Shown: positions 2,073-47,346 of the stretch, one piece after another
Layout: every line of letters starts with the position of its first letter
How positions within the stretch are numbered: the first letter of the stretch is position 1
DNA from: Sporosalibacterium faouarense
GTDB taxonomy: Bacteria; Bacillota; Clostridia; Tissierellales; VENL01
Assembly: GCF_016765695.1 (NCBI RefSeq)
Contig: NZ_JAETGO010000034.1
Span: forward strand, 62,001 to 126,000
DNA length: 64,000 bases
Reading direction: 5' to 3'
The notes under the pieces: generated by a model
What the model was told of the DNA's origin: nothing
The model's input: only the letters and a program-made list of their open reading frames with translations
Databases searched by the model: none
Translations under genes and position numbers: made by a program

Positions 2073-3452
2073 ATGTATGATAAAATGGCAGAACCATATA
2101 GAATAAAAATGGTTGAGAGAATTAAATTAATTTCTAAAGAGGAAAGAGAAAGAAAAATCCAAGAGGTTGGATACAATCAATTTGGATTAAAGAGTGAAGA
2201 TATATTTATTGACCTATTAACTGATAGTGGTACTGGAGCTATGAGTGATAATCAATGGGCTGGCTTGATGCTAGGTGATGAGTCCTATGCCGGTAGTAAA
2301 AACTACTATAATTTAATGGATAGTATTAAAGATATTATTGGGTATGATTATTTTGTACCGACTCATCAAGGTAGAGGTGCGGAAAACGTTTTATTCCCGT
2401 TGCTTATTAAAGAAGGACAATATGTACTAGGTAATATGCACTTTGACACTACCAAAGCACATATTGAGTTGAAGGGTGGAAGAGCAATAAACTTAGTTAT
2501 CGAAGATGCTTACGATACACAAAAAGAACATCCATTCAAAGGTAACTTTGACATTGATAAGCTTGTTAGTTTTATTGAAGAAAAAGGTGTAGAGAAGTGT
2601 GCTTTTATACTTATAACTATAACTTGTAATAGTGCCGGAGGACAGCCTGTTTCTATGGAAAATATTAAGGCTGTTAAAGAAGTTGCAGACAAGTATGGTT
2701 TAAGGGTATTCTTTGATGCAGCTAGATTTGCTGAAAATGCACACTTTATTAAGCAAAGAGAAAAAGGATATGAAAATAAAACTGTAAAAGAAATAGTTAG
2801 AGAAATGTTTTCATATGGGGAAGGATTAACCATGAGTGCTAAAAAAGATGGTTTAGTAAATATGGGTGGTATGATTGCCATTAATAATGATGAAGATTTG
2901 TATGAAGGCGTTAGAAAAATGGTTATACCTATAGAAGGATTTCCTACTTATGGTGGACTTTCAGGTAGAGATATGGAAGCTTTAGCAAGAGGATTAAGAG
3001 AAGTTGTAGAAGAAGACTATCTTCAATCAAGAATTGGTCAAGTTGAATACTTAGGCAGAAAGCTAGACGAAGCAGGCATTCCTATTCAAAAGCCTGTTGG
3101 AGGTCATGCTGTATTTGTTGATGCTAAGAAGATGCTTCCTCATATCCCATATCATCAATTCCCTGCGCAAGCATTGTGTGTAGAATTATATAAAGAAGCA
3201 GGCATTAGGGCTGTTGAAATAGGGTCATTCCTATTAGGAAGAGATCCGGACACTAAAGAGCAACTAGAATCGCCTCTAGAGCTTTTAAGACTTACTATAC
3301 CAAGAAGAATGTACACTAATAATCACATGGACGTTATAGTAGAGGCATTTAAAAATATTAACAAGAGAAAAGATCAATTAAAAGGATATGACTTTACTTA
3401 TGAGCCAGAGGTATTAAGACACTTTATAGCTAAGTTAAAGCCAGTTGAGTAA
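2073..3452 (+). CDS. tnaA: tryptophanase (tryptophan indole-lyase)
   Basis: A 459-residue PLP-dependent beta-eliminating lyase that splits tryptophan into indole, pyruvate and ammonia. The family is shared with tyrosine phenol-lyase (TPL). Here the discriminating stretches [23 protein letters not shown] and [13 protein letters not shown] follow tryptophanase rather than TPL, which has DATRCVENAYF. The PLP lysine lies in MSAKKDG near residues 257-258, and QGRGAEN provides cofactor contacts. The start has a strong GGAGGGG site, with a TATAAT hexamer (2044-2049) about 25 bp upstream. No Trp-containing leader peptide like enterobacterial TnaC was found, and no tnaB-like permease is next to it. 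A strong terminator follows. Confidence 0.92.
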
Positions 3453-4127: not shown

Positions 4128-4676
4128 TTAATGTCTATTATATTTTTCATCTAGCATACGTGATATTAAGCTTCCAGCACTACGTTTAGTTAAATTACGG
4201 TAATCAACCTCTACATCTAAAGTACTAGATAATTTTTTTAGTGTATCAACCTGTCTTTGAGTGGGAGGTTCATCGTTATATAGTCCAACGTTAGTTGAAG
4301 TGTATTCCTGATGTACAGTTTCATTAGGTTCAGATATGTCCTCTGTATTTAATTCTTCGATTGCTGTCATGCCTATATTTGTTAAATCTCTTAGAGCTCT
4401 AGCCTTAGCCCTTGTAGACGCCATTCTAATGATATGAGGGGCTATTTTAGAGTTCACAGACATAGGACTAGCATCGCCATAGTCGACAAATTTATTGCTA
4501 TTTGTTATTGCGGTTGCTCTGCAAATAGCAGTCATATTATTATCTTTACTAGGATATTGAACTAAATCAACCTCAATTGACTTTAATTGATTCTGATGAG
4601 CTAAGTCTAAAAGTCCTTCATAAGTAACATAGGATTTTCCCTGTAGAGTTATTACGAACTTTTCATTAATAGGCAT
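4128..4676 (-). CDS. conserved protein of unknown role, phage-recombination-like tail
   Basis: A 182-residue soluble protein I cannot name. Its conserved-looking core contains AICRATAIT, GDASPMSV and HIIRMASTRAKARALRD, followed by TNIGMTAIEEL. The C-terminus has the short pattern QRQVDTLKKLSS...LTKRSAGSLISRML, resembling tails seen in phage single-strand annealing and DNA-binding proteins (RecT/ERF/Rad52 type). That resemblance suggests a nucleic-acid role but is only inference. The start ATG has a GGAAGG-like site. It is the first gene of a two-gene minus-strand unit with the ferritin-like protein, in otherwise ordinary chromosome. Confidence 0.6.
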   Translation of the reverse strand: MPINEKFVITLQGKSYVTYEGLLDLAHQNQLKSIEVDLVQYPSKDNNMTAICRATAITNSNKFVDYGDASPMSVNSKIAPHIIRMASTRAKARALRDLTNIGMTAIEELNTEDISEPNETVHQEYTSTNVGLYNDEPPTQRQVDTLKKLSSTLDVEVDYRNLTKRSAGSLISRMLDEKYNRH

Positions 4677-4882
4677 AATTTCACCTTCCTTCAGTATTAT
4701 TTTTTATTTCTTTATATATAAATAAACATCTTAATTAAGTAAAAGAATTAAAAATATGGTTCTAAAAGAAAGAAATTGAAATAGGATCTTTGAAATTTAT
4801 ATAATGAATTTTTTTAGCAGAAAAGATTACAGAAAGATATATTACTAAATATATTAATCAATAAGAGTGATATATTTGTAAT

Positions 4883-4956: not shown

Positions 4957-5994
4957 TTAATCAATTATATACTTCATTCCAAGCTTGATAGTATTTTCAA
5001 TTGCTTCTTTATGAGTTCTTTCATGGGAGTGGGATGCATCTACACCAGGTCCGATAAGACCATGTTTAAATTCCCAACCAGCTCTCATAGCAGCGCTGGC
5101 ATCTGAACCATAAAAAGGATAGATATCAATTTTATAATTAATATCATTTTCCCTTGCAATCTTGACTAATTTCTTTCTTAGTTCAAAATCATAAGGTCCA
5201 CTAGAATCTTTGGCACAAATTGTAACACTAAATTCATCAGATGTTTGACCTTCACCAGGGGCTGACATATCAATTGCTACAAATTCAAAGGTCTTTTCAG
5301 GGATTGAAGCCGATGCTCCATGACCTACTTCTTCATAATTACTAATAAAGAAGTTTGTAGTATGAGTAGGAGTAATATTATTATCTTTGATGTATTTAGC
5401 CATACCTAATATAGCAGCTACACCAGCTTTATCATCCAGATGTCTTGATTTCACAAATCCGCTTTCTGTAACTGTAGTTCTAGGATCAAAGTAAACAAAA
5501 TCACCAACTTCTATACCTAGTTTCTGTACATCCTCTTTATCTTCTACCTTTTCATCTAGTCTAACTTCCATTGTACTTTGTTTTCTTTCGAGATTTTTAG
5601 CTTCTCCACCATGTACATGAGTTGAGGCCTTAGTGATTAAAACTGTACCAGTGTATTTTTTACCATCATATGTTTCTATAGTACAATGTTCACCTTCAAT
5701 CGAATTCCACATGTAACCACCTAATTGAGTAAGCTTAAGTTTTCCATTACTCTTGACTTCTTTTACCATAGCACCTAAAGTATCAACATGGGCTGATAAA
5801 GTTCTATGTTTATCATCGTTATCGCCTTTAATTGTACCTACTAAAGCACCTTTATTAGTTATGTAGTTTTCTACTCCTAATTCGTCAAGCTCTTTTTTAA
5901 TAAGATTAATTACTTCTTTTGTATTTCCCGATGGACTTGGTGTTTCTAAAATCTCAACAAGTTTGTCTGTAACATAATTCATATCAATTTTCAT
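4957..5994 (-). CDS. M42-family metallo-aminopeptidase/endoglucanase-like peptidase
   Basis: A 345-residue dinuclear-metal aminopeptidase of family M42 (FrvX/PepA/TET type), cytoplasmic, likely trimming peptides. Metal and catalytic positions are recognisable: AHVDTLGAM (first His/Asp), SRHLDDKAG (bridging Asp), NYEEVGHGA (catalytic and metal Glu), FVAIDMSAPGEG (Asp) and the C-terminal DASHSHERTH (last His). Length is normal for the family. The start has a GGAGGA site. It stands alone on the minus strand with its own terminator, opposite to the NUDIX-whiA operon. Annotations as cellulase or glucanase in this family are usually misleading; peptidase is the better call. Confidence 0.9.
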   Translation of the reverse strand: MKIDMNYVTDKLVEILETPSPSGNTKEVINLIKKELDELGVENYITNKGALVGTIKGDNDDKHRTLSAHVDTLGAMVKEVKSNGKLKLTQLGGYMWNSIEGEHCTIETYDGKKYTGTVLITKASTHVHGGEAKNLERKQSTMEVRLDEKVEDKEDVQKLGIEVGDFVYFDPRTTVTESGFVKSRHLDDKAGVAAILGMAKYIKDNNITPTHTTNFFISNYEEVGHGASASIPEKTFEFVAIDMSAPGEGQTSDEFSVTICAKDSSGPYDFELRKKLVKIARENDINYKIDIYPFYGSDASAAMRAGWEFKHGLIGPGVDASHSHERTHKEAIENTIKLGMKYIID

Positions 5995-20173: not shown

Positions 20174-21391
20174 ATGCGAAAAGATGTGTCTAATCAAATA
20201 AAACTTCTGAGGGAGGAGGTTGAATTATTGAACAAAAGTGAGCTAGCAAGAAGATTCAATTGTGATAGGAGGACAGTAGAAAAGTATATTAATAGCTCAG
20301 GAGATGTATCGAGAAAATCTAGAGAAGTAAAAAGTAAGTTAGATGAGTATAAAGAAATAGTAATAGATAAAGTAGATAACTATGGATCTAAGTCAATGGC
20401 GATATTTAAGTTCATTCAAAAAAAGGGATATGAAGGAGGATATCAGACAGTAAATAACTTTGTTAAGAGTCATAGGAAATCTGAAATAAAAAAAGCAACA
20501 ATCAGATTTGATACTAGCCCAGGTCTTCAAGCACAAGTAGATTGGAAAGAAAGTATAAAGATGATTAGTAAGCAAGGGGAAGTATTTGAAGTTAACATAT
20601 TTTTAATGGTTTTAGGTTATTCAAGACTTAAATTCTTAAAACTCACAACAGATAGGACTCAAGAAACACTATTTGAATGTCTGTTTGAAGGGTTTAAATA
20701 TTATCAAGGAATTCCAAAGGAAATACTGTTTGATAATATGTCCACAGTAGTAGATAGAAATAGGACAACCTTTAAGAATATAACCATAAATAAAAATTTT
20801 AAATACTTTTCAATAGATGCTGGCTTTGAAGTGATAACCTGTAGGCCATATAGACCTGAAACCAAAGGAAAAGTAGAAACTGTTGCAAAACTAACAGATA
20901 GATTGGTTCCATTTAATGAAGAGTTTGATACCTTCGAGGAATTAGAAACCATTGTGGAATCATTTAATCAAGACGTAAATAGTGAGATATCACAAGCAAC
21001 AAATGAAGTACCTTTTTTAAGATTTAAAAAAGAAAAAGAGTATTTAAACCCCTTACCACCTATGGATCTCCTTTTATCATATTTCTACCACGAAAAAGAA
21101 TATAAGGTATCTAACGAATCCATGATTAGGTATAAAGGTAAAAAATACTCTGTTCCAACAAGTTATATAGGTTGTTACTTAACAGTATCACAAATAGAAA
21201 CTGAATTATACATTTATTATACTAAAGATTTAATTGCTTGTCATAAAATATCTGATAAAATTCTTCACTACAAAAGAGATCATGCAAAGGACATATTACG
21301 TTCAGATGCACTTAAACACTATTCTGATGAGGATGTGGAGCTATTTATTGAGGAAAATCTAAAAAATATGGATATATTTTTGGAGGATTGA
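20174..21391 (+). CDS. istA: IS21 transposase IstA
   Basis: A 405-residue IS21-family transposase. The N-terminal helix-turn-helix (SELARRFNCDRRTVEKYI, about 21-38) binds the ends. The rve/DDE core shows the three acidic residues in QAQVDWKE, EILFDNMS and ETKGKVET. The C-terminal region has the beta-barrel-like RYKGKKYSVPTSYIG segment typical of IstA. The start ATG follows AGGAG. istB follows after 4 bp, as usual for the family. No frameshift or stop is seen, so the enzyme is probably active. Confidence 0.95.
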   Translation: MRKDVSNQIKLLREEVELLNKSELARRFNCDRRTVEKYINSSGDVSRKSREVKSKLDEYKEIVIDKVDNYGSKSMAIFKFIQKKGYEGGYQTVNNFVKSHRKSEIKKATIRFDTSPGLQAQVDWKESIKMISKQGEVFEVNIFLMVLGYSRLKFLKLTTDRTQETLFECLFEGFKYYQGIPKEILFDNMSTVVDRNRTTFKNITINKNFKYFSIDAGFEVITCRPYRPETKGKVETVAKLTDRLVPFNEEFDTFEELETIVESFNQDVNSEISQATNEVPFLRFKKEKEYLNPLPPMDLLLSYFYHEKEYKVSNESMIRYKGKKYSVPTSYIGCYLTVSQIETELYIYYTKDLIACHKISDKILHYKRDHAKDILRSDALKHYSDEDVELFIEENLKNMDIFLED

Positions 21392-21395
21392 TTTC

Positions 21396-22163
21396 ATGAG
21401 TACATATAATAAGCTGATGAATAACCTTGAGATACTTAAACTGGAGAAGTTCAAAAGTTTCTTACCAAACTTTTTAGAAGAAATAGCTAAAAATGAAATT
21501 CCATTTATTGATGCTTTATTAAAGTTGACTGAAAAGGAATTGGAATTTAGAGATGAGAGAGCTTCAAAGATTCAAATAGCAGTATCGGCTTTTCCTTTTG
21601 AAAAAACACTATCAGACTTTAACTTTGATTTTCAGCCTTCCATTAATAAAGCGGAATTATTAGATTTACAGAGTTTAAGATTTCTTGAAAATAAGGAAAA
21701 TATACTGTTTTTTGGTTCATCAGGAGTTGGTAAAACTCACTTGGCTGTAGCACTTGGTGTTGCTGCAGCTAAGAAAAGGCATTTAACTTATTTTATATCA
21801 TGCCATGACTTAATTATGCAACTTAACAAGGCACATGCTGAAAATAGACTAGAAACTAAACTAAAGCACTATGCAAAATATAAGCTACTGATAATTGATG
21901 AGATAGGCTATCTACCTATTGATAAACAAGGGGCTAATTTATTATTTCAACTCATCAATAAACGTTACGAAAAGAACTCTACCATTATCACCACTAATCA
22001 ACCCTTTAGTAAATGGGGAGAAGTTTTTTCAGACATTACACTTGCTAATGCAATACTAGATAGGTTAATCCATCATTCGAGTATTATTAAAATAACAGGT
22101 CCCTCTTATAGACTAAAAGGAAAAGTAGAATTATTAGAAGCTAAGAAAAACAATAACCACTAA
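21396..22163 (+). CDS. istB: IS21 helper ATPase IstB
   Basis: A 255-residue AAA+ ATPase that selects targets and assists IstA, related to DnaC. Walker A GSSGVGKTHLAVAL lies near residue 109 and Walker B LLIIDEIGYLPI near 165; sensor residues follow in STIITTNQPFSKW. The N-terminal helical domain is complete. It is in the same operon as istA, and its stop is about 60 bp from the right inverted repeat. Confidence 0.95.
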   Translation: MSTYNKLMNNLEILKLEKFKSFLPNFLEEIAKNEIPFIDALLKLTEKELEFRDERASKIQIAVSAFPFEKTLSDFNFDFQPSINKAELLDLQSLRFLENKENILFFGSSGVGKTHLAVALGVAAAKKRHLTYFISCHDLIMQLNKAHAENRLETKLKHYAKYKLLIIDEIGYLPIDKQGANLLFQLINKRYEKNSTIITTNQPFSKWGEVFSDITLANAILDRLIHHSSIIKITGPSYRLKGKVELLEAKKNNNH

Positions 22164-22614: not shown

Positions 22615-23397
22615 ATGAGTAAAATTATAGCCGTAGCATCCCAAAAAGGTGGGGTAGCAAAAAGCACAACTTGTAGGAATTTAGCAACGATTTTAGCAAA
22701 GGAGGGTTACAAGGTACTCGCAATTGATACGGACAATCAAGCTTCAATGACTGACTGCTTTGGTATTGAGAAACCTGAAACACTTGATACGACACTGTAT
22801 CATTTGATGATGGCTGTTATGAATGAAGATGATTTTCCACCAAAAGAGAACTACATACTAAACATGGATGGCGTGGATGTCATCCCCAGCAGTATTGAAA
22901 TGTCAGCCATTGAGATGAACTTGGTCAGTACCATGAGCAGAGAATACGTTCTAAAAACAATCATAGAACAGCTTAGAGCAGATTATGATTACATCATTGT
23001 AGATTCAGCTCCATCCTTAGGCTTAATGACATTAAATGTATTAGCTGCTTGTGACAGTGTATTGATTCCAGCAACACCGGAGTACTTATCGGTAAAAGGA
23101 CTGGAACTATTGCTTCATACTATTATGAAGATAAAGCGCCGAATTAATCCAAGTATTACTTTTGAAGGCATTCTGCTAACGATGTTTGATGAGCGAACCA
23201 ATCTATCCAAAAATATGATTGAAATGGTAGATGAATCTTATGGTGAGCATATCAAAGTGTTTGATATTAGAATCCCCAAATCTGTAAAAGTTGGAGAAGC
23301 CAATCTTCAAAGTAAATGTATCGTGGATTATATGCCAACGAATAAAGCGGCTATTGCTTATCAGGAACTGACAAAGGAGTTGATTAACAATGGATAA
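22615..23397 (+). CDS. parA: ParA-family partition ATPase
   Basis: A 260-residue ParA/Soj ATPase with the deviant Walker A QKGGVAKSTTCRNLA (about 8-22), the A' motif DTDNQASMTDCFG and Walker B YIIVDSAPSLGLM. With ParB it partitions or stabilises DNA. On ICEs such pairs probably help the excised circular form persist and replicate in the cell. Start follows GAAAGGAG. parB overlaps its end by 8 bp, indicating translational coupling. Confidence 0.92.
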   Translation: MSKIIAVASQKGGVAKSTTCRNLATILAKEGYKVLAIDTDNQASMTDCFGIEKPETLDTTLYHLMMAVMNEDDFPPKENYILNMDGVDVIPSSIEMSAIEMNLVSTMSREYVLKTIIEQLRADYDYIIVDSAPSLGLMTLNVLAACDSVLIPATPEYLSVKGLELLLHTIMKIKRRINPSITFEGILLTMFDERTNLSKNMIEMVDESYGEHIKVFDIRIPKSVKVGEANLQSKCIVDYMPTNKAAIAYQELTKELINNG

Positions 23398-24412
23398 AGC
23401 AAAAATGAAAAAAGTGGAAACATTTGCCTCAATCTTTGGGGAGGATCATAGTGATGCGCCATCTGAAAAAACAGATGGCACCACGTCATTAAAGCTTGAT
23501 GATCTCATTCCTTTTAGAAATCATCCATTCAAGCTTTATGAAGGGGAACGATTCAATGACATGGTTGAGAGTATTAAAAACTATGGCGTGATTGTTCCTA
23601 TCGTTGTAAGAAAAGTAGATGATAAATTTGAAATTTTATCTGGCCACAACAGAGTTAATGCAGCTAAAGAAGCCGGGTTAACTGAGATTCCAACGGTAAT
23701 AAAGGAAGGGCTCACAGAAGAAGAAGCGACACTAATTGTCACTGAAACAAATTTAATGCAACGTTCCTTTTCAGAACTGGCTCACTCAGAAAGAGCCACA
23801 GTTCTTGCTACTAGACACAGTGTAATGAAAAGCCAAGGTGTCAGAACAGATTTACTAAGTGAGATTGAGAAGTTGTCTAAAGCGCCTAATGCAATGGAAG
23901 ATTTAACTTCATGCCCAGTGGGCACGAAGTTAGATACAAAAAAAGAGATTGGTGAAAAATATGATTTGTCCTCTCGCTCAGTAGCCCGCTATTTGCGTAT
24001 CAACGAATTAAATGCTCCATTAAAAGACTTAGTTGATGAAGGCAAAATTGCCATGCGAGCTGGTGTAGACCTTTCTTATCTATCACAGGAAAATCAAGAA
24101 ATGGTGGAAGCCATTATTTCTGAGAACACCTTTAAAGTAGATATGAAAAAGGCAGCTCTTTTGAGAAAGCATGAGAGAGAGGGTAATCTTAATTGGAATA
24201 TAGCCCAAAAGATTATCAGTGGTGATATGCTTAAAAGCACAGGTAAAGTGAAACCGTTTAAGCTTCAACCCACAATCATTTCAAAGTACTTTAATCCAAA
24301 TGAGGATAAGAAGGCTATTGAAAAAACAATTGAAAAAGCTCTGGATTTTTACTTTAGCCAGGTGAAAAACCAATCACATGACTTAGAGGAGGGGGAGGAG
24401 ATGATTGAGTAG
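23390..24412 (+). CDS. parB: ParB-family partition protein
   Basis: A 340-residue ParB homologue. The N-terminal ParB/Srx domain binding CTP is seen as [27 protein letters not shown] and [19 protein letters not shown] (about 35-135). The central HTH domain ([14 protein letters not shown]) follows near residue 200. The C-terminal part is ICE-specific and was not recognised. Start ATG overlaps parA and follows AAAGGAG; its end overlaps the following giant gene by 8 bp. No parS repeats were seen nearby. Confidence 0.88.
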
Positions 24413-27400
24413 ACTGACAGAAATCAAGGAAATTTATGACTACATCTTGAAAGAAATCATGCAAGATGAGCAGGCGTGGAAAGAATTTCTAACATTTCAC
24501 GCAAGGATATATAAGCATAGCTTTAATAATGCCGTGCTTATATATGCTCAAAGACCTGAAGCTACATTAGTTGCAGATATGGAAATTTGGAATCGTCGCA
24601 TTGGCAGATGGATTAACAGGGGCGCTAAGAGTATCGCAGTCTTTGATGATCAAAGTGCTTATTTAAAACTGAAATATCTATTTGACATTGAAGACACTCA
24701 TGGTCAACCACATACCATTCCTAAAGTATGGCAATTAAATGAAGCATTAGAATCACAATTATTAGAAAGCTTTAGAGCTAATACGTTGTCAGAATGGATT
24801 GCAAGGCGGACCCATGAATCAGTCATAGCTTATGCCTCTGATATTCAGCAAGGACTTGAAAAAGAACTGTCTAAGACCAAATTATCGGGACTTCCCCTTG
24901 AAGGTGTTAGAAAGCAGTTTATGCAGTCTCTCATTGATAGTGTGGAGTACATGACAGCCATCCGCTCAGGTATTGAAGAACCTAAATTAAGTAATTTAAA
25001 TGCATTTAGTACAGTAACAGATTTTGAGACAAAAGCATTAACCTTAAGATTAGGCTATATGACAAGCATCATCTCAGAGCAAATTTTACGAGAAATTGAA
25101 AGAGAAATTAAAAGCATAAAAAAAGAAAAAAGGAGTGTGAATGTCAATGAAACCCATGGAACTCAGTTACCAAGAAGTACAAGGGATTTATCATCCTCAG
25201 ATTCAAATATCGAAGGAGGAAAGCTACGACAAGAAGCCACTAGGGAAGTACGGACAGATGGCAATGAATTACCTGAAAGAGGAACACATCAATCGGTACA
25301 ATTATCTAGTGACCGAAGGGACGCTGCTTCTACTGATGCATCAAGTGAACGAGGAAGCATGGGAGAGGATGGAGAAACTAGAGGAGCAGATGCTACAGAA
25401 AGAACCATTACAAGATCCAACCAACACCTATCAGACTTATCGTCACAGGGAGATGATTCGAACGAGAGCGGAGGAGATCGTTCTTCAAGAAATCATCTTC
25501 AAGGAGAGATAGCAAAAGATTTAGAGCTGCCGGAGCGTAGCTCTTTTTTAATGGAACTAACAGATGATGAGCTTATTGAAAAGGTACTGCTAAGAGGTTC
25601 TGGATTTCAAGGTGGGAAACAACGGATTGTTGATTTCTTTTCAGAAGAACATACTGCAAAAGAAAGAGCAGACTTTCTAAAAAATGAATATGGTACTGGT
25701 GGTGGTTCTGTTACATTCACTGATGACCTAAGCGGTTTTGAAAATCACGACAGTAAAGGGATTACCATTGATTTATATAAATCTGATAAAGAAATTCATT
25801 TGTCTTGGGCTAAAGTTGTTTCCGGTATTGATGCCTTAATTGATAACGGTAAATACTTTGAACCTCGGTATAAAAATGATAAGCCACCAACAAGAAAGGC
25901 AGTGTATCAACCAACATTATTTGACATCAATTATGCTGAAAATGACATTACACATGAGAACTATAAAAAGTTAATGAAGATAGCCCCTGGTATCTTAAGC
26001 GGACGTTATCGCTATATGAAACTGAAAGCACCTGGCTTTATGGATCTTGTCATTGAAAAGCTCTATGAGAATCGAATCTCTCTATCCCATTATTACGAGC
26101 AAAATGGAGACCTGATGAGTGATCCGGATATGGAACTCATTGTGGATCAGAATCATAAAACATTAACAGCAGCCACTTTTCAACAGGATAACATGGCAAT
26201 CTATCATGAAGCGTATCAGGGTGATGAATTAGTTAATCCTGATTTAGAAGATGAGTTAAATGATTTTCTGAAAGATTGGTTATCGAATATTGCTAGGCAA
26301 GGTCACATTGTTTATAAGGCTTATTATTCAGAGGATGTAGACGTGGCAAACGTAGAAGCAACCTTTGATGATAAAGGTCATGAAATCATTATTGAAGCAC
26401 CTTCAGAAACAGATGATTTATTGGACCTAGAAGATGAGGATCTCCATGAATACCCCTTAGAAGTTGGCATGGAAGTGGATATTGAGGGAAGGAAATTTCA
26501 AATCGAATTCATTGACTATGATAACAATGCGGTATCTCTTATGGATTTAAGCTTTGCAGGGCAAACTGGTTATCCAATTTTCAGAAAAGAAAGTGTTGAT
26601 TTTGTTTTAGATTATCTGCCCGATGAGAAACCACTGACGGAAGAAGAAAAGTGGGGTATTGTATCCATAGGTCCAGTTGAAGATGAAAAGCAAAAACAGG
26701 AACAATCTACAAAAATCAATTATCAATTTTCACCTGAAGATGAAATTGGTATTGGTGGGTTAAAAACAAAATTTAGAGCTAATATTGAAGCGATTAAAAC
26801 GTTAAAAGTCATTGAAACAGAAAACCGTATGGCCACTGACAAAGAACAGTCCATCTTAGCCAAATACGTTGGTTGGGGTGGTATGCCACAAGCTTTTGAT
26901 GTGGGGGCAAGTGGTTGGAGCAATGAATACGGTGAACTAAAAAAACTATTGTCACAAGAAGAATATGATAGTGCAAAAGCGTCAACGCCTAATGCCCACT
27001 ATACATCCTCTGTTGTCATTCAAAGTATTTATCAGGCACTAGATCAGTTTGGTTTTAAAAAAGGGAACATCTTGGAACCTTCCATGGGCGTTGGTAATTT
27101 CTTTTCCCACCTTCCTGATTCTATGAACAAGTCAAAGCTTTTTGGGGTTGAACTGGATGATATATCCGGACGTATTGCAAGGCAGCTCTATCAGAAAGCG
27201 CAGATTCAAGTCAAAGGCTATGAAGAAACACAATTTGAAGATAACTTTTTTGATGTATCCATTGGCAATGTACCTTTTGGGAATTACAAAGTATATGACA
27301 GACTTTATGATAAGCATAACTTTATGATCCATGATTATTTCTTTGCAAAAACACTAGATAAAGTGCGTCCTGGTGGCATCATTGCCTTTGTTACCAGTAA

Positions 27401-30400
27401 GGGAACCATGGATAAAAAAGATCAAGCTGTCAGGAAGTATATTTCTGAAAGAGCTGAATTAATTGGTGCTATACGATTACCTAATACAGCATTTAAGGAA
27501 AATGCCAATACCGATGTAACAGCAGATATCCTTTTTCTAAAAAAGAGAGAACGTAGGTCGGTGGAAATACCAACGTGGTTATCGGTTGCAGATAATGAAA
27601 ATGGGGTCCCCGTCAATCAATACTTTATTGACCATCCCCATATGATGCTTGGTGAGATGGTATTTGATGAAAGGATGTTTGGTAGAGACAGTCGCTATAC
27701 GACGTGTGTAAATACAGAAAATAACTTTAATCTAGGGGAAGCTCTATCAGAAGCTGTGTCTCATCTTCAAGCTGAAATTGGTTACTACGAGCAGGCAAAA
27801 AAAGAGGACAGCAATGACATACCTGCTGATCCTAAGTACAAGAACTACTGTTATGCCTTTATTGATGAGAAACTTTATTACCGTGAAAACTCTATTATGA
27901 GACGAATGGATTATACCGGTAAAACCCTTGAGCGGATTCAAGGCATGATGGCGATTCGGGATATAACTAGAGAAATCATTACACTTCAAACGGAAGGCTG
28001 CACGAAAGAATCACTTGAAAAGGCTCAAGACCAGTTAAACCAAATCTATGATGCTTTTGTTAAAGATTATGGATATATTACTTCAAGACCCAATGCCAGC
28101 GCCTTCCGTGATGACAATGACTATCCACTTTTATGTTCTTTAGAAGTGGAGGATGAGGATCATCATGTAACAAAGGCAGATATGTTCACAAAACAGACCA
28201 TTAAGCCTTATGAATCCATAACCGATGTAGATTCTGCTTTTGAAGCATTAACAGCATCCTTAAATGAAAAAGGCATGGTGGACATTCCATTTATGGCTGA
28301 GCTTTATGATGAAGAACCAAAAGTCATCATTAAAGAGCTTAAACAGGATATCTACTTAAACCCTGAAAAGTATGATGAAAATGATGCTTTGAGAGGTTGG
28401 GAAACTGCTGATGAATATCTCTCAGGTGATGTAAGGCAAAAGCTTAAATTTGCCAAAGTCTTTGCGGACATGAATTCGAAACTCTTTTCAAAAAATGTTA
28501 CTGCCCTAGAAAAAGTACAACCCATTGATCTTGAGGCCAGTGATATTGATGTAAGGTTAGGAACCACATGGATTGAACCAGCAGATTATGAGCAGTTTAT
28601 CTATGAGACCTTGAAAACACCGAGATATTATCATAATACTGGTGGCAGAAACGAAATCAAAGTGCATTATAACAATTACAATGCAAGCTTTGGTGTTGAG
28701 AACAAAGGCTTAGATGGGTATTCAGTTTCAGCCAAAGAAACCTATGGTACATCTAGAATTAATGCTTACTACATCATTGAAGACAGCTTGAATCTTAGAA
28801 ATTCTACGGTTAAGGATCGTGTTGAAGATGGAGATACCGTCAAATATGTCATCAACAAAAAAGAGACCATGCTGGCGAGAGAAAAACAATCGCTGCTAAA
28901 ACAAGCCTTTAAAGAATGGCTATTTAAAGATCCAGAGAGACGTAAAAAGTATGTGGATTATTACAATCAGCATTATAACAATATTCGCCTGAGAGAATAT
29001 GATGGCAGTCATTTAAAATTGCCAGGGATGAATCCAGACATTAAATTAAGAGAACACCAAACAGCTGCCATTGCAAGGATTATCTATGGTGGCAGTACAC
29101 TTCTAGCACATTCCGTAGGTGCAGGAAAGACTTTCGAAATGGTTGCCAGCTGTATGGAGCAAAAGCGACTGGGACTGATTAATAAAGCAGTTCTTGTTGT
29201 ACCAAATCATTTAACACAGCATATCGGCAGTGAATTCTTAAGGCTTTATCCATCGGCTAATATTCTAGTCACTACAAAAAAGGACTTTAAAAAATCTAAT
29301 CGAAGACGTTTCGTCAGTCGTATTGCTACAGGAGCTTATGATGCTGTTATTATGGGACACTCGCAATTCGAGAAAATCCCTGTATCGAAAGAGCGTCAGG
29401 AAGAAATGATCTATCGGCAGATTAATGATATCTCAGCTGCTATTGCTGATGCAAAAAAGAGTAATGGCGAAAATTGGAGTATCAAGCAGATGGAAAAACT
29501 CAAGCTTTCATTAACAGCTGAAATCAAACGACTTCACGACAGCCCCAAAGATGATGTGATTAACTTTGAAGAACTTGGAATAGATTGTGTTTATGTAGAT
29601 GAAGCTCATTATTTTAAGAACTGTGCTGTATTTTCAAAGATAAGAAATGGTGCGGGAATCTCCAATACACGTAGTAAAAAATCCATGGATATGCTCATGA
29701 AAACCCAGTATATCCAAGAAATCAATCAAGGACGTGGCGTCATCTTTGCGACTGGTACACCCATCAGTAATAGCATGACTGAAATGTATGTTATGCAAAG
29801 GTATATTCAAAATAAGGAGCTTGAAGCAAGAGGTATCCATCACTTTGATGCATGGGCAGCTCAGTTTGGAGAAGTGGTTTCAAGTCTAGAATTGGCTCCT
29901 GAAGGTACGGGCTATCGCTATAAAAGCAGATTTGCTAAGTTCTCTAATTTACCGGAGCTCATGACGATTTTTAAAAATATGGCAGATGTAAAAACAGCGG
30001 ATATGCTTAAATTACCTGTGCCTAAATTAAAGGGAGACAAACATAAGTTGATTTCAGCTGAGTCCAGTGATTTTACAAAAGAGATCATGGAAAGCTTTGT
30101 TGAAAGGGCAAGTGATATTCGAAATGGTATGGTTGATCCAAGGATTGACAACATGCTAAAGATAACCAATGAAGCAAGACTTCTAGGACTTGATCCAAGA
30201 TTACTTTATGATGAAGCACCAAATGAAGCAGATAGCAAAGTCAATCAGTGTATTGATAAGGTCTTTGAAGAATATAAGGAGAGTGATTTTTTTAAAGGAA
30301 CACAAATCATATTTTGTGATGTAGGAACGCCTAATACAGATGGGCGTTTTTCTGTTTATCCTTATATCAAGGAAGAATTGATAAAGAGAGGTATTCCAGA

Positions 30401-31511
30401 AAAAGAAGTCTGTTTCATACATGATGCCAGTAGTGAAGCGCAAAGAGAAGCTCTATTTGCTGATATGCGTAGTGGTAACAAACGCATTATTCTTGGTTCA
30501 ACTGCCAAGATGGGCACAGGAACCAATATACAGGACCGCTTAATTGCTCTTCATCATTTAGACTGCCCGTGGCGCCCAAGTGACCTGGAACAGCGGGAAG
30601 GAAGAATCTTAAGACAAGGCAATCAAAATGAAGCTGTAAACATCTATAAATATGTGACAAAATCAACTTTTGACAGCTATTTGTGGCAAATTGTTGAGAA
30701 CAAACAGCGCTTCATCAGCCAAATTATGACCAGCAAATCTGTTGCAAGAAATGCTGAGGATATTGATGAAACAGTACTATCTTTTGCAGAAGTCAAAGCC
30801 CTAGCAACAGGTAATCCTTTGATTAAAGAAAAGATGGATATTGATAATGAAGTCAGTCGTTTAAGTCTTTTAAAGTCTGAATACAACAGCAGGAGGTATG
30901 CCATGGAGGATAATTTCACCTACAAATACCCTAAGTTGATTCAGCAGGCAAAACAGCGACTTGAAGGATTGATTAAAGACATCAGTCGACGAGACATGAA
31001 TAAGACAGAAGAATTTCAAATTAATATTGATGGCAAATTCTTTGATGAAAGGGAAAAAGCAGGGACCTATCTTCAAGTGCTATTATCAAGACTCGAACCG
31101 GATAAAGAGGCTCATGTGGGTACATTTAATGGATTTGATCTTTTAATCCTAAAGAACAATTTCTTTGGTCAACACAAGATGATCCTTCATGCAGAGCAAA
31201 AATACGAAGTTGAATTTGGAGATAGTCCCCACGGTAATATGGTTAGGCTTGAAAATCTTTTGGAAGGGCTTGAAAAGCGGATTGAAAAGACGGAAAGTCA
31301 GATTGATGAGTATGAAAGAAATATGGCACAGTCCAAGGAAGAATGGGAAAAACCATTTATGTATAAGGAAGCATTTGCGCAGAAGCTAAAGCGACAATTC
31401 GAGCTTAATGCTGAACTGGATATGGATAAAGGAGATGATGGTCTGGCGGTGAGTGAAGATGATTTTAATGAAGATACGATAGTTGAAGATGATGAAGAAA
31501 TGACAGTTTAG
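24405..31511 (+). CDS. giant ICE protein: ArdC-like N-terminus, N6-methylase and SNF2-type helicase
   Basis: A 2368-residue protein typical of clostridial ICEs. Order: ArdC-like region binding ssDNA (1-150, with [12 protein letters not shown]); disordered Ser/Asp/Arg/Gly-rich linker (about 246-370); LPD-like domains; N6-adenine methylase fold with [10 protein letters not shown] (about 891) and GNVPFG (about 954) in place of the classical NPPY; then superfamily-2 helicase with [11 protein letters not shown] (about 1570), [10 protein letters not shown] (about 1731), [10 protein letters not shown] and [10 protein letters not shown] (about 2063). It may protect the transferred DNA from restriction or remodel it. 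TTG start after GGGGGAGGAG, overlapping parB. A second gene is encoded in another frame inside the linker. Confidence 0.88.
25141..25512 (+). CDS. tnpV: TnpV homologue nested in another frame of the giant gene
   Basis: A 123-residue frame lying wholly inside the 24405-31511 gene but in a different phase. Its residues fit the TnpV family of Tn4451-like elements: [11 protein letters not shown] near the start, [34 protein letters not shown] and the ending [18 protein letters not shown] textbook AGGAG site (25131-25135) precedes ATG 25141; a second ATG at 25147 is possible. In the main frame the same DNA codes for low-complexity linker, as expected if the linker was overprinted onto tnpV. TnpV function is unknown. 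Confidence 0.8.
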
Positions 31512-40212: not shown

Positions 40213-42282
40213 ATGAAGTATAAACAACTGAAGCTGATGATATCAGCACTAATATTTCTTGTAGGTTTATGGATGAATATTTATTTTTCCACGAACCTAC
40301 ATTTTTTATTGTCAGGAAAAATGAAGGTGTTATCTTTTATCCCAATAAAATCATGTTTTGAAAGTATGACGGCAGGTGGTCAACATTTGTCACTATTTCT
40401 TTATTTACAAGGCTTTATCCTTCTGTGCTCTATTTATTTCTATCTGGCAAATATGAAGCCCTATCAATCAGATTTAGAAGCAATTACTCCTGATATAGCA
40501 ACGCCGGTTAGAGCAGGACAAATGCAATTTGGATCAGCTAGATGGCTCACAGAAGAAGAAAAAAACAAAGGGTTTAAATCTATAAAGCTTAGAAGAAACG
40601 AACTAAAAATATTAATGGAAAGGATCAGGCAGGATGAAGAAAAAGAATACTGTTCAAAAAAAGAAAACTTATCCCAAGGAGAAACCCTTCAAAGACTATC
40701 AGAAAGAAGTAATGAAAAGTCAAATGAAAAAGACTTACCAGAAACCGATACGCAGGAATATCCGTTACCCAAGCTAAACCAAGGCGGTATCGTTGTTGGT
40801 TTTCATAAAGAGGGAGATACTGAGAAGATATTTTACATTGATGAGGATACTCATAGTCTCTGTATTGGTGCAACACGATCAGGAAAAACAAGGTCTGTAG
40901 TGCTTCAATCTGTTGGACTACTGGGACTTTCAGCTGAAAGCTTAGTTATTAGTGATCCAAAAGGTGAAATCTTCACTTATACCTATCCCTATTTTGAAGC
41001 TCTTGGTTATGAAGTGATTTGCATTGATTTTAAAAACCCTCTAAAGAGTGATCGGTATAACTTCTTACAGCCGGTCATTGATGCCATTGATGAAAATGAT
41101 ATTCCTAAAGCAGTTGATGCCACATGGGATTTAACAGCTGCCCTTGTACCGGAAAATAGCCATAATGAAAAAATATGGACCAATGGAGAAGCCAGTATTA
41201 TTGCCAGTGCAATTATGGCAGTCGTTTATGACAATCGTAATGGTAAAGACAGAAGATATCAGAACATGAGCAATGTTTATTTCTTCATCAGTGAGATGTG
41301 CAAAGTGGTGGATGGCGCAATGCCTATCATTAAATACATGAAGAACATGCCGGCACATCATCCTGCAAAAGCCTTACTTGCCATAAGTGAAGTTGCTCCA
41401 AGCAAAACTAGGGGATCATTTTATACTTCAGCGCTGACAACATTAAGGCTGTTTACAAACCCGTTGATCCATTCAATGTCAGAGGCCAGTGATTTTGATT
41501 TAAGGAAAATGGGAACGGATAAGCAGGTGCTATTTATTGTTCTTCCTGATGAAAAGACAACCTATTACAGTTTGGCAAGTCTCTTTGTTAATCAATGCTA
41601 TATGCAACTGGTTAAAAATGCAGATGAAAGAGGTGGACGATTAAAAAGACGAGTAAACTTCATGCTTGAAGAGTTCGGTAACTTTGTTAAAATCCCCGAT
41701 TTTGCAAACAAGCTGACAGTTGGTGGTGGAAGGGGTATAAGGTTTAATTTATTTCTTCAAAGTTTTATGCAACTAGATGAGAAGTATGGCAAAGAAGTCG
41801 CTGGAACTATTAAATCTAACTGTGAAACATGGCTTTATCTTCAGGCAGATGATTTGGGAACTTTGGATGAAATATCAAAGAAGCTGGGGAACTACACTGT
41901 ATCCACCTATTCTTTAAGTTCGTCTCATGGTAAATATTCTAATCCATCAAGTTCCCATAGCGTTAATCTGACCCATCGAGCACTTTTAACAGTAGATGAA
42001 ATCAGACGAATTAATAGACCATATACATTAATCACTTCGAGAAATCACCCGGCAATGATGCAATTGCCAGATTTATCAGAGTGGTTTTTTAATACCCTAT
42101 TTGGGCTTGGAGACAAAGAACACAACAGAAAGGTGCGTGAAAAAAGAGAAGAAAATCGTAACGTAAGAAAATCTCCTAATGCCATTGATACATGGAACAT
42201 TTGGGAGTATTACACCCAAGAAGAAAAATCGAATTTTGTCTATATGCGAAATATGAAAGGCGGTGAACAAGGTGAAACTTAA
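40213..42282 (+). CDS. VirD4/TraG-type coupling protein
   Basis: A 689-residue type IV coupling ATPase that brings relaxosome DNA to the secretion channel. Two N-terminal membrane segments (about 8-30 and 58-76) anchor it. Walker A is CIGATRSGKTRSV (about 217-229); Walker B LEEFGNFVKIPDF and the GGRGIRFNLFLQSF segment follow. The C-terminal NTLFGLGDKEHNRK tail is charged. Start ATG follows GAGGTGATG. The next gene overlaps its end by 20 bp. Confidence 0.93.
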   Translation: MKYKQLKLMISALIFLVGLWMNIYFSTNLHFLLSGKMKVLSFIPIKSCFESMTAGGQHLSLFLYLQGFILLCSIYFYLANMKPYQSDLEAITPDIATPVRAGQMQFGSARWLTEEEKNKGFKSIKLRRNELKILMERIRQDEEKEYCSKKENLSQGETLQRLSERSNEKSNEKDLPETDTQEYPLPKLNQGGIVVGFHKEGDTEKIFYIDEDTHSLCIGATRSGKTRSVVLQSVGLLGLSAESLVISDPKGEIFTYTYPYFEALGYEVICIDFKNPLKSDRYNFLQPVIDAIDENDIPKAVDATWDLTAALVPENSHNEKIWTNGEASIIASAIMAVVYDNRNGKDRRYQNMSNVYFFISEMCKVVDGAMPIIKYMKNMPAHHPAKALLAISEVAPSKTRGSFYTSALTTLRLFTNPLIHSMSEASDFDLRKMGTDKQVLFIVLPDEKTTYYSLASLFVNQCYMQLVKNADERGGRLKRRVNFMLEEFGNFVKIPDFANKLTVGGGRGIRFNLFLQSFMQLDEKYGKEVAGTIKSNCETWLYLQADDLGTLDEISKKLGNYTVSTYSLSSSHGKYSNPSSSHSVNLTHRALLTVDEIRRINRPYTLITSRNHPAMMQLPDLSEWFFNTLFGLGDKEHNRKVREKREENRNVRKSPNAIDTWNIWEYYTQEEKSNFVYMRNMKGGEQGET

Positions 42283-42677: not shown

Positions 42678-42908
42678 ATGAGAAAGTTAATGAACAAAGC
42701 ACAAATGGAAATGGTAAAAGTAATGATTAAAGGAAGAGCAATTCTTGCGGGAAATAGCGGTGAAGGAATGGTTGATTCAGCCGTCAAAATTTTGATCTCG
42801 ATTGTAATTGGAGCATTGCTATTAGCGGGTTTGTACGCTCTTTTCGGTGACGTAATTTTGCCAACTTTGCAAGAGCGTATTGAAGAAATGTTTAACTTTG
42901 CAGGATAA
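42678..42908 (+). CDS. small prepilin-like membrane protein (DUF6133-like)
   Basis: A 76-residue protein: basic N-terminus of 27 residues, then GEGMVDSA (Gly28-Glu29-Gly30) and a hydrophobic helix of about 20 residues (ILISIVIGALLLAGLYALF). It resembles DUF6133. The cleavage-like Gly/Glu motif before a single hydrophobic helix is what a prepilin peptidase substrate would show, and the same GEGx[VI]D motif occurs in the DUF4320-like protein at 54754. Start ATG follows GGAGG. Candidate major Flp-like pilin of this element; alternatively a T4SS membrane component. Confidence 0.65.
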   Translation: MRKLMNKAQMEMVKVMIKGRAILAGNSGEGMVDSAVKILISIVIGALLLAGLYALFGDVILPTLQERIEEMFNFAG

Positions 42909-42924
42909 AAGGAGAGAGATGACA

Positions 42925-45900
42925 ATGAATAAAAATAAAAGGCAGTGGTTAAGTTTTATTTTAGTTTTAAGTATATTATTATCCAACTTTTCAGGGTTGG
43001 TTTATGCAACAGAAAGTTCTTTCGCTGACGCAAAAGGGCATTGGGCAGAGAACGTCATAAATCGACTAACAGAAAAAGGTATCGTGCATGGATATCCGGA
43101 TGGGCTGTGTCATCCGGATTCAATGATTACAAGAGCAGAGTTCTCTGCTCTTATTGCACGAGTAACGAAGCTTCAGCCTAAGGATAAAGAGGCTGATTTT
43201 ACAGGTTTTGAAGACATCCAAGGAAATTTTGCTCAAGAAGACATTGAAAAGCTTGTTGGCGCAGGGATTATCCTCCAAGAAGAATATGGGCAGTATTACT
43301 ATCCCAATGTACCGATTACTCGATTAGAAATCATAAGAATGATGGTTCGATCCATTTATGAACATTCTCATGAGGAAAATTTCACAGAGGATGTAAACTT
43401 TACTGATATAGCTGGTTTATCTAAAGAAGACCTAGAATATATCTATCAAGGCAAACAGCATGGAATTATTTCAGGATATCCGGATGGAACGGTTCGACCG
43501 GAGGGAAAAGCTACTCGTGCAGAAGCTTTTTCTATGCTTGATCGGTTGAAGAAAATCAAGGATGAGAGAGACCAGGTACAGGAGGAAGCGACGGATGAGG
43601 TGGAACTTATTGATGAAACTAAAGAACGTGAGCAAACATCAGAGCATCGCCCATCACGTGTTCCTGCACCACAGTATCACTTTGAAATTCCACAAACTGC
43701 GTATGTAAATGAAGAAATAAACATCGCACCTGAGAGTCGTTATGTCAAATCTGTTACATGGACGGTTAGCAAAAATAATATTCCTATCGAACTTAACACA
43801 GCTATCGAAGGAGAGTTAACAGCTGATGGTGGTTGGGTTAAAATCAAATCCATGGGTAGCTATACACTGATGGCAACAGCGATGAATAGTCGAGGAAGAA
43901 CGGTAACCCATGAGCAGACAATAACAGTCTATTCCAATATTACAACAGAATTAGATTTACTAGAAAAAGCGCATACGGATACATCAGTTATTGTTGATTT
44001 GATAACCGAAAATCTTGGAGAAAGAGATCTTGAGTGGTCGATTAAACAAGATGATAAAGTTATTGAGATGGACTCAGCTTTTACAGGAGAATTGTCAAAT
44101 GAAGGTGGTACTGTACAATTCAAAAGTCAAGGGACTTATGAATTGATAGCAACCATTGAAGATGACTTGGGAAAGGTTATTACTGCATCGGATACAATCA
44201 ACATTTATCCTGTAGCAAAAATTAACCTAGAGATGGAATCAATTACACATTCGGATAGACCAATCACCATCAAAACGGAAACAGAAAATATAGGAGATAT
44301 GGAGCTTCAATGGACTCTGGTACGAAATGGTGAGGATGTTCCGATTGTTGATTTTATTGAGGGTGAAATTACTGCAGGAAAACAAAGGATTCGTTTTAAA
44401 GAAAAAGGCGTCTATAACTTAACAGCTTCGGCTACCGATGAAACCGGTCGAGTCTTTACAGATAGTACTTCCGTTATGGTATATCCTGTAGGCTCTGCCG
44501 GTTTTTATTTGCCTGAACTATTTCATACAGATGATACGGTAACCGTTGAAGCGACTTTTAATGAAATTGGAGAACATCGTGCAGATTGGACCTTACTTAA
44601 AGATGGCGAACCAGTCGAGATTTCCAAGGTTACAACCGGACAATTAACGAATCAAGGTGGTGAATTACGTTTTAAACATAAAGGACAGTACATTTTAAGA
44701 GCGTCTTTCACTGATGATGGTGGAAGGAGCTATAGTTATGAGCAAACATTCAAGGTATATCCGGTACCTACTATAACGTATTCACTTCCTGAATACGCTC
44801 ATACGGATACAGACATAAAGGTAGATGCAAATAGTACCGAGATCAATGACTTGACCGTTGAGTGGTTGCTTGATAATACCTTTGGATTTCAAGATTGGTA
44901 TACTTATGTTGATGGCACACTAAATAATGATGGAGGAACCATTCAATTTAAAAGAGCAGGCATCTATGAATTGGTCGCACGAATAATTGATGAAACCGGT
45001 CGTGTATTCTTATTTGAACCAGGAGATAGGACAGAGGTGTTACCGGTCTTAAATATCGATTTTGAGCTTCCTGAACTTGCCTATACGGATAGCACGATGG
45101 ATATAAGAACACATGGTAACAATAGTGTTCTTCCTGTTGAATGGAAGATAACAAAAGATGGCGAAGAAATTTCTATGAATAAAGCCATTATGGGTGAACT
45201 GAATGCTTATGGTGGTAAAATAACCTTTCTTAATGCGGGAGACTATGTTTTAACAGCAACGATAACAGATTTTCTTGGTCGAAGTTTTTCCCATAGTCAA
45301 GAAATAAGTATCAATCCAGTTATTCAGTATACGTTTACGATGCCGGAATCCATACATTTCGGAAAGACATTTGAGGTGGAAACGAGATCGTTGAACCTTG
45401 ATGAAAATCAAGCGAAATGGACATTAGAAAAAAATGAAGAATCAGTTGAGTTTGAAGGAGAACTCACAAATGATGGAGGAGAAATAGCAATCCGAGATAC
45501 CGGAGAATTTGTTCTTACAGCAACAATTATTGATCCTTACGGTCGCATGTATCAATCATCTGAGGGGATTGAAGTGACGAACACAGCACCGGAAGTCACT
45601 TTATCAGCAGTACCAACTCGAACAGCTAAGGAAGGAAAATTCTTCGTCAACATTGAAGCCAAAGCAACAGATGCCGATGGAGATGCAACAAAGTTAGAAT
45701 ACGATGGAAGAAATCCCGACGATTACTATGAAGTTGGTAATCACATGATAAGGGTAAGAGCAAAAGATGAAGCTGGCTTCTATTCACCGTGGTTAGAAAT
45801 GAGTTTTTCTGTGGTAAATGCAGCGCCAACGGTAACATTATCTGCAATACCAACACCAACAAGAACCACTAAAGATGGTAAGTTCTTTGTTGAAGTTGAA

Positions 45901-47346
45901 GCTTCAGCAACAGATATGGATGGTGATGCAACAACCTTGGAATATGAAGGAAGAACTCCTGATGATTACTACGAAGTTGGCACCCATACGATACGAGTAC
46001 GTGCAAAAGATGAGGCTGGCTTCTATTCTCCATGGCTAGAAAAGAGCTTTTCTGTGGTAAATGCAGCGCCAACGGTAACGTTAACAGCGACGCAAACAAG
46101 AATCACTAAAAATGGTAAGTTCTTGGTTAAATTTGAAGCTTCAGCAACAGATGCCGATGGTGATGCAACAACATTAGAATACGAAGGAAGAACACCGGGT
46201 GATTACTATGAAGTAGGCGATCACATTATACGAGTAAGAGCAAAAGATGAGGCTGGCTTCTATTCTCCGTGGTTAGAGAAAAGCTTTACTGTAGTTAATG
46301 CAGCTCCAAAAGTTACGTTAACAGCGACTCAAACAAGAACCACTAAAGATGGTAAGTTCTTGGTTGAAGTTGAAGCATCAGCAACAGATGCTGATGGTGA
46401 TGCAACAACGTTAGAACATGAAGGAAGAACAGAGGATGATTATTATGAAGTAGGCGATCACATTATACGAGTAAGAGCAAAAGATGAGGCAGGGTTCTAT
46501 TCTCCATGGTTAGAAAAGAGTTTTACTGTAGTAAATGTAGCACCAACAGTTACATTAACAGCAACCCCAACTAGAACCATTAAGAATGGTAAGTTCTTGG
46601 TTAATATTCAAGCCTCAGCAACAGATGCCGATGGTGATCAGACAACATTAGAATACGAAGGAAGAACAGCGGACGATTACTATGTAGTCGGTACGCATAC
46701 AGTAAGAGTAAGAGCAAAAGACGAAGCCGGATTTTATTCACCATGGTTGGCAAAAACCTTTACTGTAAGAAACTCAGCGCCGACAGCGCCGGTCATTAGT
46801 AGATCACCAAGCGGTAACAGCGTTTCACCGGGGACACCTGTCACTATTACAGCCCAAAGTACAGATCCTGAGGGAGACTCGATTTCATATGTTTGGGATG
46901 GTCGAAGTTCAGAAACACAGACATATCCTCGTGGGAAAAATGTTGTTCGTGTGAAGGCAGTCGATGCCGCCGGAGCTGAATCGCCTTGGGCAGCCATTGT
47001 CTTTTTCGTGGCTGATGCGAACGGTGGTGGAGGAATGACTTTGACTGGTCCAGATTCTGTTATTTTAGAAGAAGGTCTGGAAGGAGCGACGATTACTGAA
47101 TATACCTTTACCGTGCCCCCTGTATCCGGTCATAGCGGAAGTGATTTTGGTCGTGTACGAGGATATAATGTGACAACTAAAAAATGGGATCAGCTTGACT
47201 ATGAAACAACCAAGAACGGGATTACATTCAGTAAGACGTTAAATGCAGGTGTTTATTCTCAACTAGAATTCTATTACTATACAAATCACAATTGCATGTA
47301 CAACAAATCAAATATCACCTATTCAGTAAAGTATCACTTTGAGTAG
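42925..47346 (+). CDS. giant SLH-anchored surface protein with Ig-like and tandem repeats
   Basis: A 1473-residue secreted protein. A signal peptide (about 1-28) is followed by three S-layer homology repeats (about 30-75, 93-143, 157-210) that bind cell-wall polymer. Then come seven Ig-like repeats of about 90 residues (about 251-888), five nearly identical repeats of about 79-81 residues (889-1285), one diverged copy (to about 1365), and a C-terminal domain of about 105 residues. Each late repeat carries DADGDATTLE-like and DEAGFYSPWL segments. It is probably an adhesin for mating contact. ATG 42925 is chosen because GGAGAGAG sits 7 bases upstream; in-frame ATGs at 42880 and 42919 fit worse. 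Confidence 0.88.
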   Translation: MNKNKRQWLSFILVLSILLSNFSGLVYATESSFADAKGHWAENVINRLTEKGIVHGYPDGLCHPDSMITRAEFSALIARVTKLQPKDKEADFTGFEDIQGNFAQEDIEKLVGAGIILQEEYGQYYYPNVPITRLEIIRMMVRSIYEHSHEENFTEDVNFTDIAGLSKEDLEYIYQGKQHGIISGYPDGTVRPEGKATRAEAFSMLDRLKKIKDERDQVQEEATDEVELIDETKEREQTSEHRPSRVPAPQYHFEIPQTAYVNEEINIAPESRYVKSVTWTVSKNNIPIELNTAIEGELTADGGWVKIKSMGSYTLMATAMNSRGRTVTHEQTITVYSNITTELDLLEKAHTDTSVIVDLITENLGERDLEWSIKQDDKVIEMDSAFTGELSNEGGTVQFKSQGTYELIATIEDDLGKVITASDTINIYPVAKINLEMESITHSDRPITIKTETENIGDMELQWTLVRNGEDVPIVDFIEGEITAGKQRIRFKEKGVYNLTASATDETGRVFTDSTSVMVYPVGSAGFYLPELFHTDDTVTVEATFNEIGEHRADWTLLKDGEPVEISKVTTGQLTNQGGELRFKHKGQYILRASFTDDGGRSYSYEQTFKVYPVPTITYSLPEYAHTDTDIKVDANSTEINDLTVEWLLDNTFGFQDWYTYVDGTLNNDGGTIQFKRAGIYELVARIIDETGRVFLFEPGDRTEVLPVLNIDFELPELAYTDSTMDIRTHGNNSVLPVEWKITKDGEEISMNKAIMGELNAYGGKITFLNAGDYVLTATITDFLGRSFSHSQEISINPVIQYTFTMPESIHFGKTFEVETRSLNLDENQAKWTLEKNEESVEFEGELTNDGGEIAIRDTGEFVLTATIIDPYGRMYQSSEGIEVTNTAPEVTLSAVPTRTAKEGKFFVNIEAKATDADGDATKLEYDGRNPDDYYEVGNHMIRVRAKDEAGFYSPWLEMSFSVVNAAPTVTLSAIPTPTRTTKDGKFFVEVEASATDMDGDATTLEYEGRTPDDYYEVGTHTIRVRAKDEAGFYSPWLEKSFSVVNAAPTVTLTATQTRITKNGKFLVKFEASATDADGDATTLEYEGRTPGDYYEVGDHIIRVRAKDEAGFYSPWLEKSFTVVNAAPKVTLTATQTRTTKDGKFLVEVEASATDADGDATTLEHEGRTEDDYYEVGDHIIRVRAKDEAGFYSPWLEKSFTVVNVAPTVTLTATPTRTIKNGKFLVNIQASATDADGDQTTLEYEGRTADDYYVVGTHTVRVRAKDEAGFYSPWLAKTFTVRNSAPTAPVISRSPSGNSVSPGTPVTITAQSTDPEGDSISYVWDGRSSETQTYPRGKNVVRVKAVDAAGAESPWAAIVFFVADANGGGGMTLTGPDSVILEEGLEGATITEYTFTVPPVSGHSGSDFGRVRGYNVTTKKWDQLDYETTKNGITFSKTLNAGVYSQLEFYYYTNHNCMYNKSNITYSVKYHFE
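45589..46779 (+). repeat. five tandem coding repeats of 237-243 bp
   Basis: Units begin near 45589, 45825, 46069, 46305 and 46543. The marker GATGAGGCTGGCTTCTATTC or a close variant recurs at about 45768, 46012, 46248, 46485 and 46722. The high DNA-level similarity indicates recent duplication or gene conversion, and copy number is likely variable. Confidence 0.9.

Follow-up and report, generated by a model that had tools for sequence, protein, structure and literature searches.

Introduction

In bacteria, long overlapping genes on the same strand are considered rare and for the most part young, and annotation pipelines leave them out. Overprinting of this kind is well known in viruses and seldom shown in bacteria (for example PMC4683798, PMC8227390 and PMC9927249), and the bacterial cases met in the literature searched are few, come from E. 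coli and are often antisense. Overprinted pairs comprise two proteins from one stretch of DNA, a hydrophilic frame under low constraint and an inverted constraint on codon positions. The locus analysed here resembles them in these respects but is unlike the E. coli cases in that it extends over three Bacillota classes, involves a named protein family and has the nested gene dominating the constraint.

The closest described relatives of the nested gene are the TnpV genes (PF14198) of Tn4451/Tn4453, Tn6104 and other clostridial mobilisable transposons, which by profile belong to the same family. Known members are separate transposon genes, whereas the tnpV described here lies out of frame within a helicase gene and lacks their usual setting, that of a separate gene next to a large serine recombinase in a mobilisable transposon. 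For TnpV of Tn4451, an aid to excision was postulated from its likeness to lambda Xis (PMC3158075), and TnpX alone was reported to be sufficient for Tn4451/3 transposition (Lyras 2004, by its title as cited in PMC5704250). The helicase gene, in turn, has the same domains as the SNF2/methylase-helicase genes of ICEs and plasmids, for example snf2 of the Tn5252-superfamily ICEs. A nested tnpV is absent from most snf2 annotations examined, and IMEs that carry tnpV and are inserted into snf2 (PMC9815147) are a different matter. Overlapping genes and TnpV are both known; what we did not find in the open-access papers searched is any mention of a tnpV frame inside a helicase gene, or of a nested tnpV that appears deeply conserved in several classes.

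The nested frame and its host gene

The window, the whole 64,000-nucleotide stretch of Sporosalibacterium faouarense DNA that was analysed, has the following features around the nested frame.

22615..24412, + strand: ParA-like and ParB-like genes, directly upstream of the host gene and overlapping its start (sequence motifs)
24405..31511, + strand: host gene, methylase/SNF2-like helicase, 2368 aa, TTG start (ORF and domain matches)
24411..25124, + strand: N-terminal conserved domain of the host, aa 3-240 (iterated profile)
25131..25135, + strand: Shine-Dalgarno AGGAG of tnpV, part of the conserved AAAAAAGGAG
25138..25140, + strand: TGA in the nested frame, adjoining the first ATG
25141..25512, + strand: nested tnpV (PF14198), 123 aa, ATG start, in the +1 frame and wholly within the host ORF
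25560..25934, + strand: following conserved host domain, aa 386-510, far border of the linker (iterated profile)
26010..26309, + strand: DUF6908 domain of the host (Pfam match)
26787..27434, + strand: methylase region of the host, the query with which host genes were retrieved without bias (Pfam match)
29094..30620, + strand: SNF2-rel and Helicase_C domains of the host (Pfam match)

Pfam matches of the host ORF are to DUF6908, an Eco57I-type methylase, SNF2-rel, ResIII and Helicase_C. Methylase, SNF2-rel and Helicase_C are found in one long ORF, and a VirD4-type coupling protein encoded downstream (40213-42282) indicates that the element is conjugative. The N-terminal domain of the host, which has no Pfam match above the cut-off and is present by iterated profile in 101 of 111 host ORFs, ends about 5 residues ahead of tnpV. 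Just upstream of ParA, at 20174-22163, lie two adjacent ORFs that by sequence appearance are IS21-type istA/istB-like. Further downstream are an S-layer-homology surface protein with HYR/PKD repeats (42880-47346) and RcpC/CpaB and T2SSE genes of tad-pilus-like appearance (49931-52934).

The original prediction saw here a 123-residue TnpV frame, in another phase and wholly inside the helicase/methylase gene, and both points are borne out. The frame is +1 relative to ORF 24405-31511, and its product matches PF14198 with an E-value of 6.8e-25 (87.6 bits, the cut-off being 27 bits) over profile positions 2-111, that is, 110 of 111 positions, a strong similarity beyond chance. The conserved family residues GKYG...YLK and AEEI.L.E. 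are common to the nested protein, and divergent nested copies likewise score above the cut-off. Judged by these matches, the product of 25141-25512 is a genuine TnpV. No NCBIfam model matched it, its PHROG match is an entry of unknown function, and the sequence had no match in the PDB at E<0.05. Structure prediction from the single sequence was poor; prediction from 27 sequences (pLDDT 85) gave a beta hairpin and four main helices, a fold with no significant match in the PDB or among viral models.

Start signal of the nested gene

The nested frame has an initiation signal of its own. The AGGAG site attributed to it by the original prediction is indeed present, 5 nt before the ATG at 25141 and 11 nt before the ATG at 25147. 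Because two relatives (L008 and L010) are without the first ATG, the second is the better conserved start; it is likely the true one, with ATG 25141 as the alternative. A Shine-Dalgarno sequence resembling GAAAGGAG, followed by ATG, is present in 96 of 98 nested ORFs, a count somewhat inflated by taking the best of several candidate starts per ORF; the same combination is found at 12% (860/7086) of the other +1-frame ATGs of these genes. In the window and in its relatives L001-L010 a TGA stands directly before the first ATG, and the nested frame is not continuous with the host frame upstream.

Prevalence and position

Host genes were retrieved independently of TnpV by searching 391 genomes of the source's class with the host methylase region. 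The search led to 91 loci, and TnpV is nested in 81 of them, always in the +1 phase and always between the same two conserved host domains, where both are found. The ten other loci include two truncated where a contig ends (L081, L097) and three remote helicases without the N-terminal domain (L149-L151). Among host ORFs with the N-terminal domain, 97 of 101 carry a nested tnpV, a figure that includes loci found via TnpV. Ten close relatives (Alkaliphilus, Fusibacter, Petrocella, Petromonas and others) have both frames open through the overlap, and in none of the close relatives compared is the nested frame interrupted by a stop or a frameshift. The same arrangement occurs on plasmids of E. faecalis, E. 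hirae, E. wangshanyuanii, Virgibacillus, S. suis and Selenomonas; the cases from Bacilli and Negativicutes were found via TnpV searches, the host retrieval having used one domain and covered one class. Similarities of host and TnpV are correlated (rho 0.61, with 0 of 500 permutations as high), in keeping with co-inheritance. By these comparisons the nesting is old and general, in three Bacillota classes (Clostridia, Bacilli and Negativicutes), and is no local insertion. TnpV is not strictly required by the helicase, since one helicase (L127) has no TnpV nearby and another locus (L148) has seemingly lost its nested copy.

Large serine recombinases are near only 2 of 106 nested loci. They are near 11 of 76 free TnpV loci, many of which are too short to tell, and as a general neighbour of free TnpV they were rejected; other neighbours are mixed. 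The window's own genome has a second TnpV, freestanding and divergent (G000:C71:16393-16716).

Substitution patterns in the two frames

Comparing substitutions in both frames, as the original prediction had proposed, gave a clear result. In ten aligned sequences, third-position divergence of the host is 0.25 before tnpV, 0.054 within it and 0.23 after it, the drop coinciding exactly with the extent of tnpV, and first-position divergence is 0.07-0.09 in the flanks and 0.18 within. This inverted signature, with host wobble positions frozen and tnpV third positions varying, is seen in 11 of 11 clades, the window's included. Per possible change, the rate is 0.395 for substitutions that alter the helicase protein and leave TnpV the same, and 0.097 for those that alter TnpV and leave the helicase the same. 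In flanking helicase sequence the corresponding rates are 0.09-0.10 for the former class and 0.38-0.47 for silent helicase changes, so that the 0.395 equals the frequency of silent changes there. It is therefore the TnpV frame that bears the constraint while helicase residues drift, and the nested frame is under purifying selection.

The host frame is maintained as well. When the tnpV codons are shuffled, it stays open in 0.05% of trials for the window (median 1.8% over 98 cases), and the naive product of these chances over 44 divergent lineages, which are not strictly independent, is 1e-71. The equivalent frame is open in only 1 of 76 freestanding TnpV genes. A helicase frame open so far beyond what TnpV coding would lead one to expect suggests that both proteins are probably translated from the overlap. 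The original prediction was also right in calling the main frame a linker at this place: its residues drift, and the overlap is 84% hydrophilic, the whole protein 61% (counting S/D/E/R/K/N/Q/G/T/P/H); a further count gives 82% for the overlap and 63% for the whole host.

Two single loci may be noted here. The one freestanding TnpV whose host-equivalent frame is open (L160, a 162-aa ORF) may be the remnant of a nested copy. In L068 a stop interrupts the helicase frame inside the overlap (5655-5657 of the coding strand) with tnpV intact, either a real break or a sequencing error.

These patterns bear on whether the nested frame might have arisen by chance, or be what is left of a decayed tnpV, and have no product. 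In 9.7% of synonymous shuffles of the host, a +1 ORF of 123 codons or more turns up at some place, which such an explanation can claim for itself, and 5% leave the exact place of tnpV open; ORF length was accordingly rejected as evidence for tnpV, being not significant. The stop-free run of 123 codons in the +1 frame is, for its part, common to five full-length relatives, the second longest being 52 codons. Against a chance ORF stand the Pfam match, the roughly 30% identity kept across classes, the conserved Shine-Dalgarno sequence and ATG, and the inverted substitution pattern; we regard it as extremely improbable, the selection pattern refuting it unless RNA is what the constraint acts on. 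Taken together, homology, conservation, selection and the ribosome site place tnpV far beyond chance.

If the constraint on host wobble positions did reflect an RNA or DNA element, such as a recombination or IME site in snf2, no protein would be needed, and IMEs that carry tnpV integrate preferentially into the snf2 genes of streptococcal ICEs (PMC9815147). However, the constraint tracks TnpV codon positions rather than bases, tnpV third positions vary freely and the pattern ends at the tnpV borders, so that we consider such an element highly unlikely. Very probably, 25141-25512 is a functional nested out-of-frame gene, TnpV and helicase are both made, and the pair is ancient. Within this large and mobile gene family, the majority of the members sampled have the overlap, in three Bacillota classes and with a clear selection signal.

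Annotation of the overlap

Plasmids pEFM9-2 (NZ_CP098745.1) and pKUB3006-2 (NZ_AP018540.1) differ at 0 of 6400 nt, and RefSeq gives the former a TnpV and a shortened SNF2 gene and the latter a full SNF2 gene without TnpV. Identical DNA annotated in two ways indicates that the annotation pipeline forces the choice of one frame. As a rule, genome annotation displays only one of the two genes, and the proteome lists of many Firmicutes ICEs and plasmids are without a conserved TnpV protein.

Taken at face value, the PGAP entries for pEFM9-2 and Selenomonas, which list TnpV and a shortened SNF2 gene, would fit a helicase made of two genes with an ordinary TnpV between them, as would the helicase frames broken nearby in L068, L073 and L091; alternatively, TnpV might be reached by programmed frameshifting. 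We think either arrangement quite unlikely. In pKUB3006-2 the same DNA bears the annotation of a single full gene, the helicase frame stays open across the overlap to a degree that chance does not explain, and the TGA before the nested ATG bars entry from upstream, which excludes a frameshift fusion in the window's group.

Evolutionary history of the pair

A tnpV insertion that became a linker of the giant protein was the history put forward in the original prediction. Part of it stands: helicase homologues without nested tnpV have a much shorter linker (71-72 aa in L098 and L127) than those with it (at least 138 aa). A single capture without later escapes does not stand. The tree of 118 TnpV proteins, which is unrooted, has only 116 columns and many open forks and includes no TnpV outgroup, has 9 changes between nested and free (8-10 in bootstrap trees, 39.7 with shuffled labels), and a single nested/free split is rejected (AU test, p=6.6e-6).

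On this history a transposon-borne tnpV would have entered the helicase gene, once in the distant past or repeatedly, and its other frame, open by chance, would have been kept as a linker. Besides the linker lengths, which are predicted alike by tnpV insertion or by later loss, it agrees with freestanding TnpV being common; and since the frame required is open in roughly 1 of 76 free TnpV genes, capture is possible. However, a lone capture never followed by escape leaves the tree unexplained, several captures at the same site and in the same phase are improbable, and nested copies are more diverse than free ones (mean identity 31.6% against 40.6%, a gap that is partly a sampling effect). We give insertion a real chance, though one distinctly below even.

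Alternatively, TnpV was overprinted in the helicase linker, or its nesting predates the divergence of the sampled families, and free TnpV are later escapes. Because every nested copy has the same phase and position, a nested origin followed by escapes is the simplest reading. The few label changes in the bootstrap trees and the rejected single split agree with it, and the freestanding tnpV of L098 and L147 look like escapes inside the same operon. Weighing against it are the limits of the tree just given and the lack of polarity, the outgroup helicases L149-L151 being also without the N-terminal domain. One ancient nested origin with several escapes fits the tree no worse than capture does, and perhaps better, and we put this history at nearly an even chance. 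The freestanding genes of L098 and L147 may be escapes or may preserve an ancestral arrangement.

More tentatively, TnpV may itself have originated as an overprinted frame within the linker of such a helicase of mobile elements, several escapes then giving rise to the freestanding family. If this is true, a widespread bacterial protein family began as the second frame of another gene. The pair is a tractable case in which to study how one stretch of DNA serves two proteins in the long term and whether overprinting yields a gene family that is later freed.

Possible function

If both frames are translated, tnpV would initiate at its own internal ribosome site (AGGAG with ATG 25147 or 25141) on the helicase mRNA and be released as a separate protein of 121-123 aa, and ribosomes on the helicase would read the same bases as a linker, hydrophilic and probably disordered, that joins two folded domains. 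Selection acts mainly on the TnpV frame, the helicase frame being kept just open and hydrophilic. The pair is an ancient one, and most such helicases of mobile elements in Bacillota have it at the same position and in the same phase. As the most likely function we propose that TnpV would serve as a small accessory factor co-produced with the methylase-helicase; both may act in one step of maintaining or transferring the element, with nesting holding the pair together.

In L098, a freestanding tnpV (2713-3084) lies about 1.4 kb upstream of a helicase without a nested copy, in the order ParA-ParB-TnpV-helicase, similar to that of the window, and in L147 one (4407-4820) lies 84 nt upstream of such a helicase. 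Their position suggests that the two products work jointly, and the functional link that these two loci point to is suggestive.

A QL[SNT]LF motif is found beside the overlap, just past the tnpV stop, in many loci (for example L107, aa 398, and L076, aa 405), and also in helicases without tnpV (L098, aa 305). It resembles the bacterial sliding-clamp binding motif. Residues 502-506 of the window's host (25908-25922) read QPTLF.
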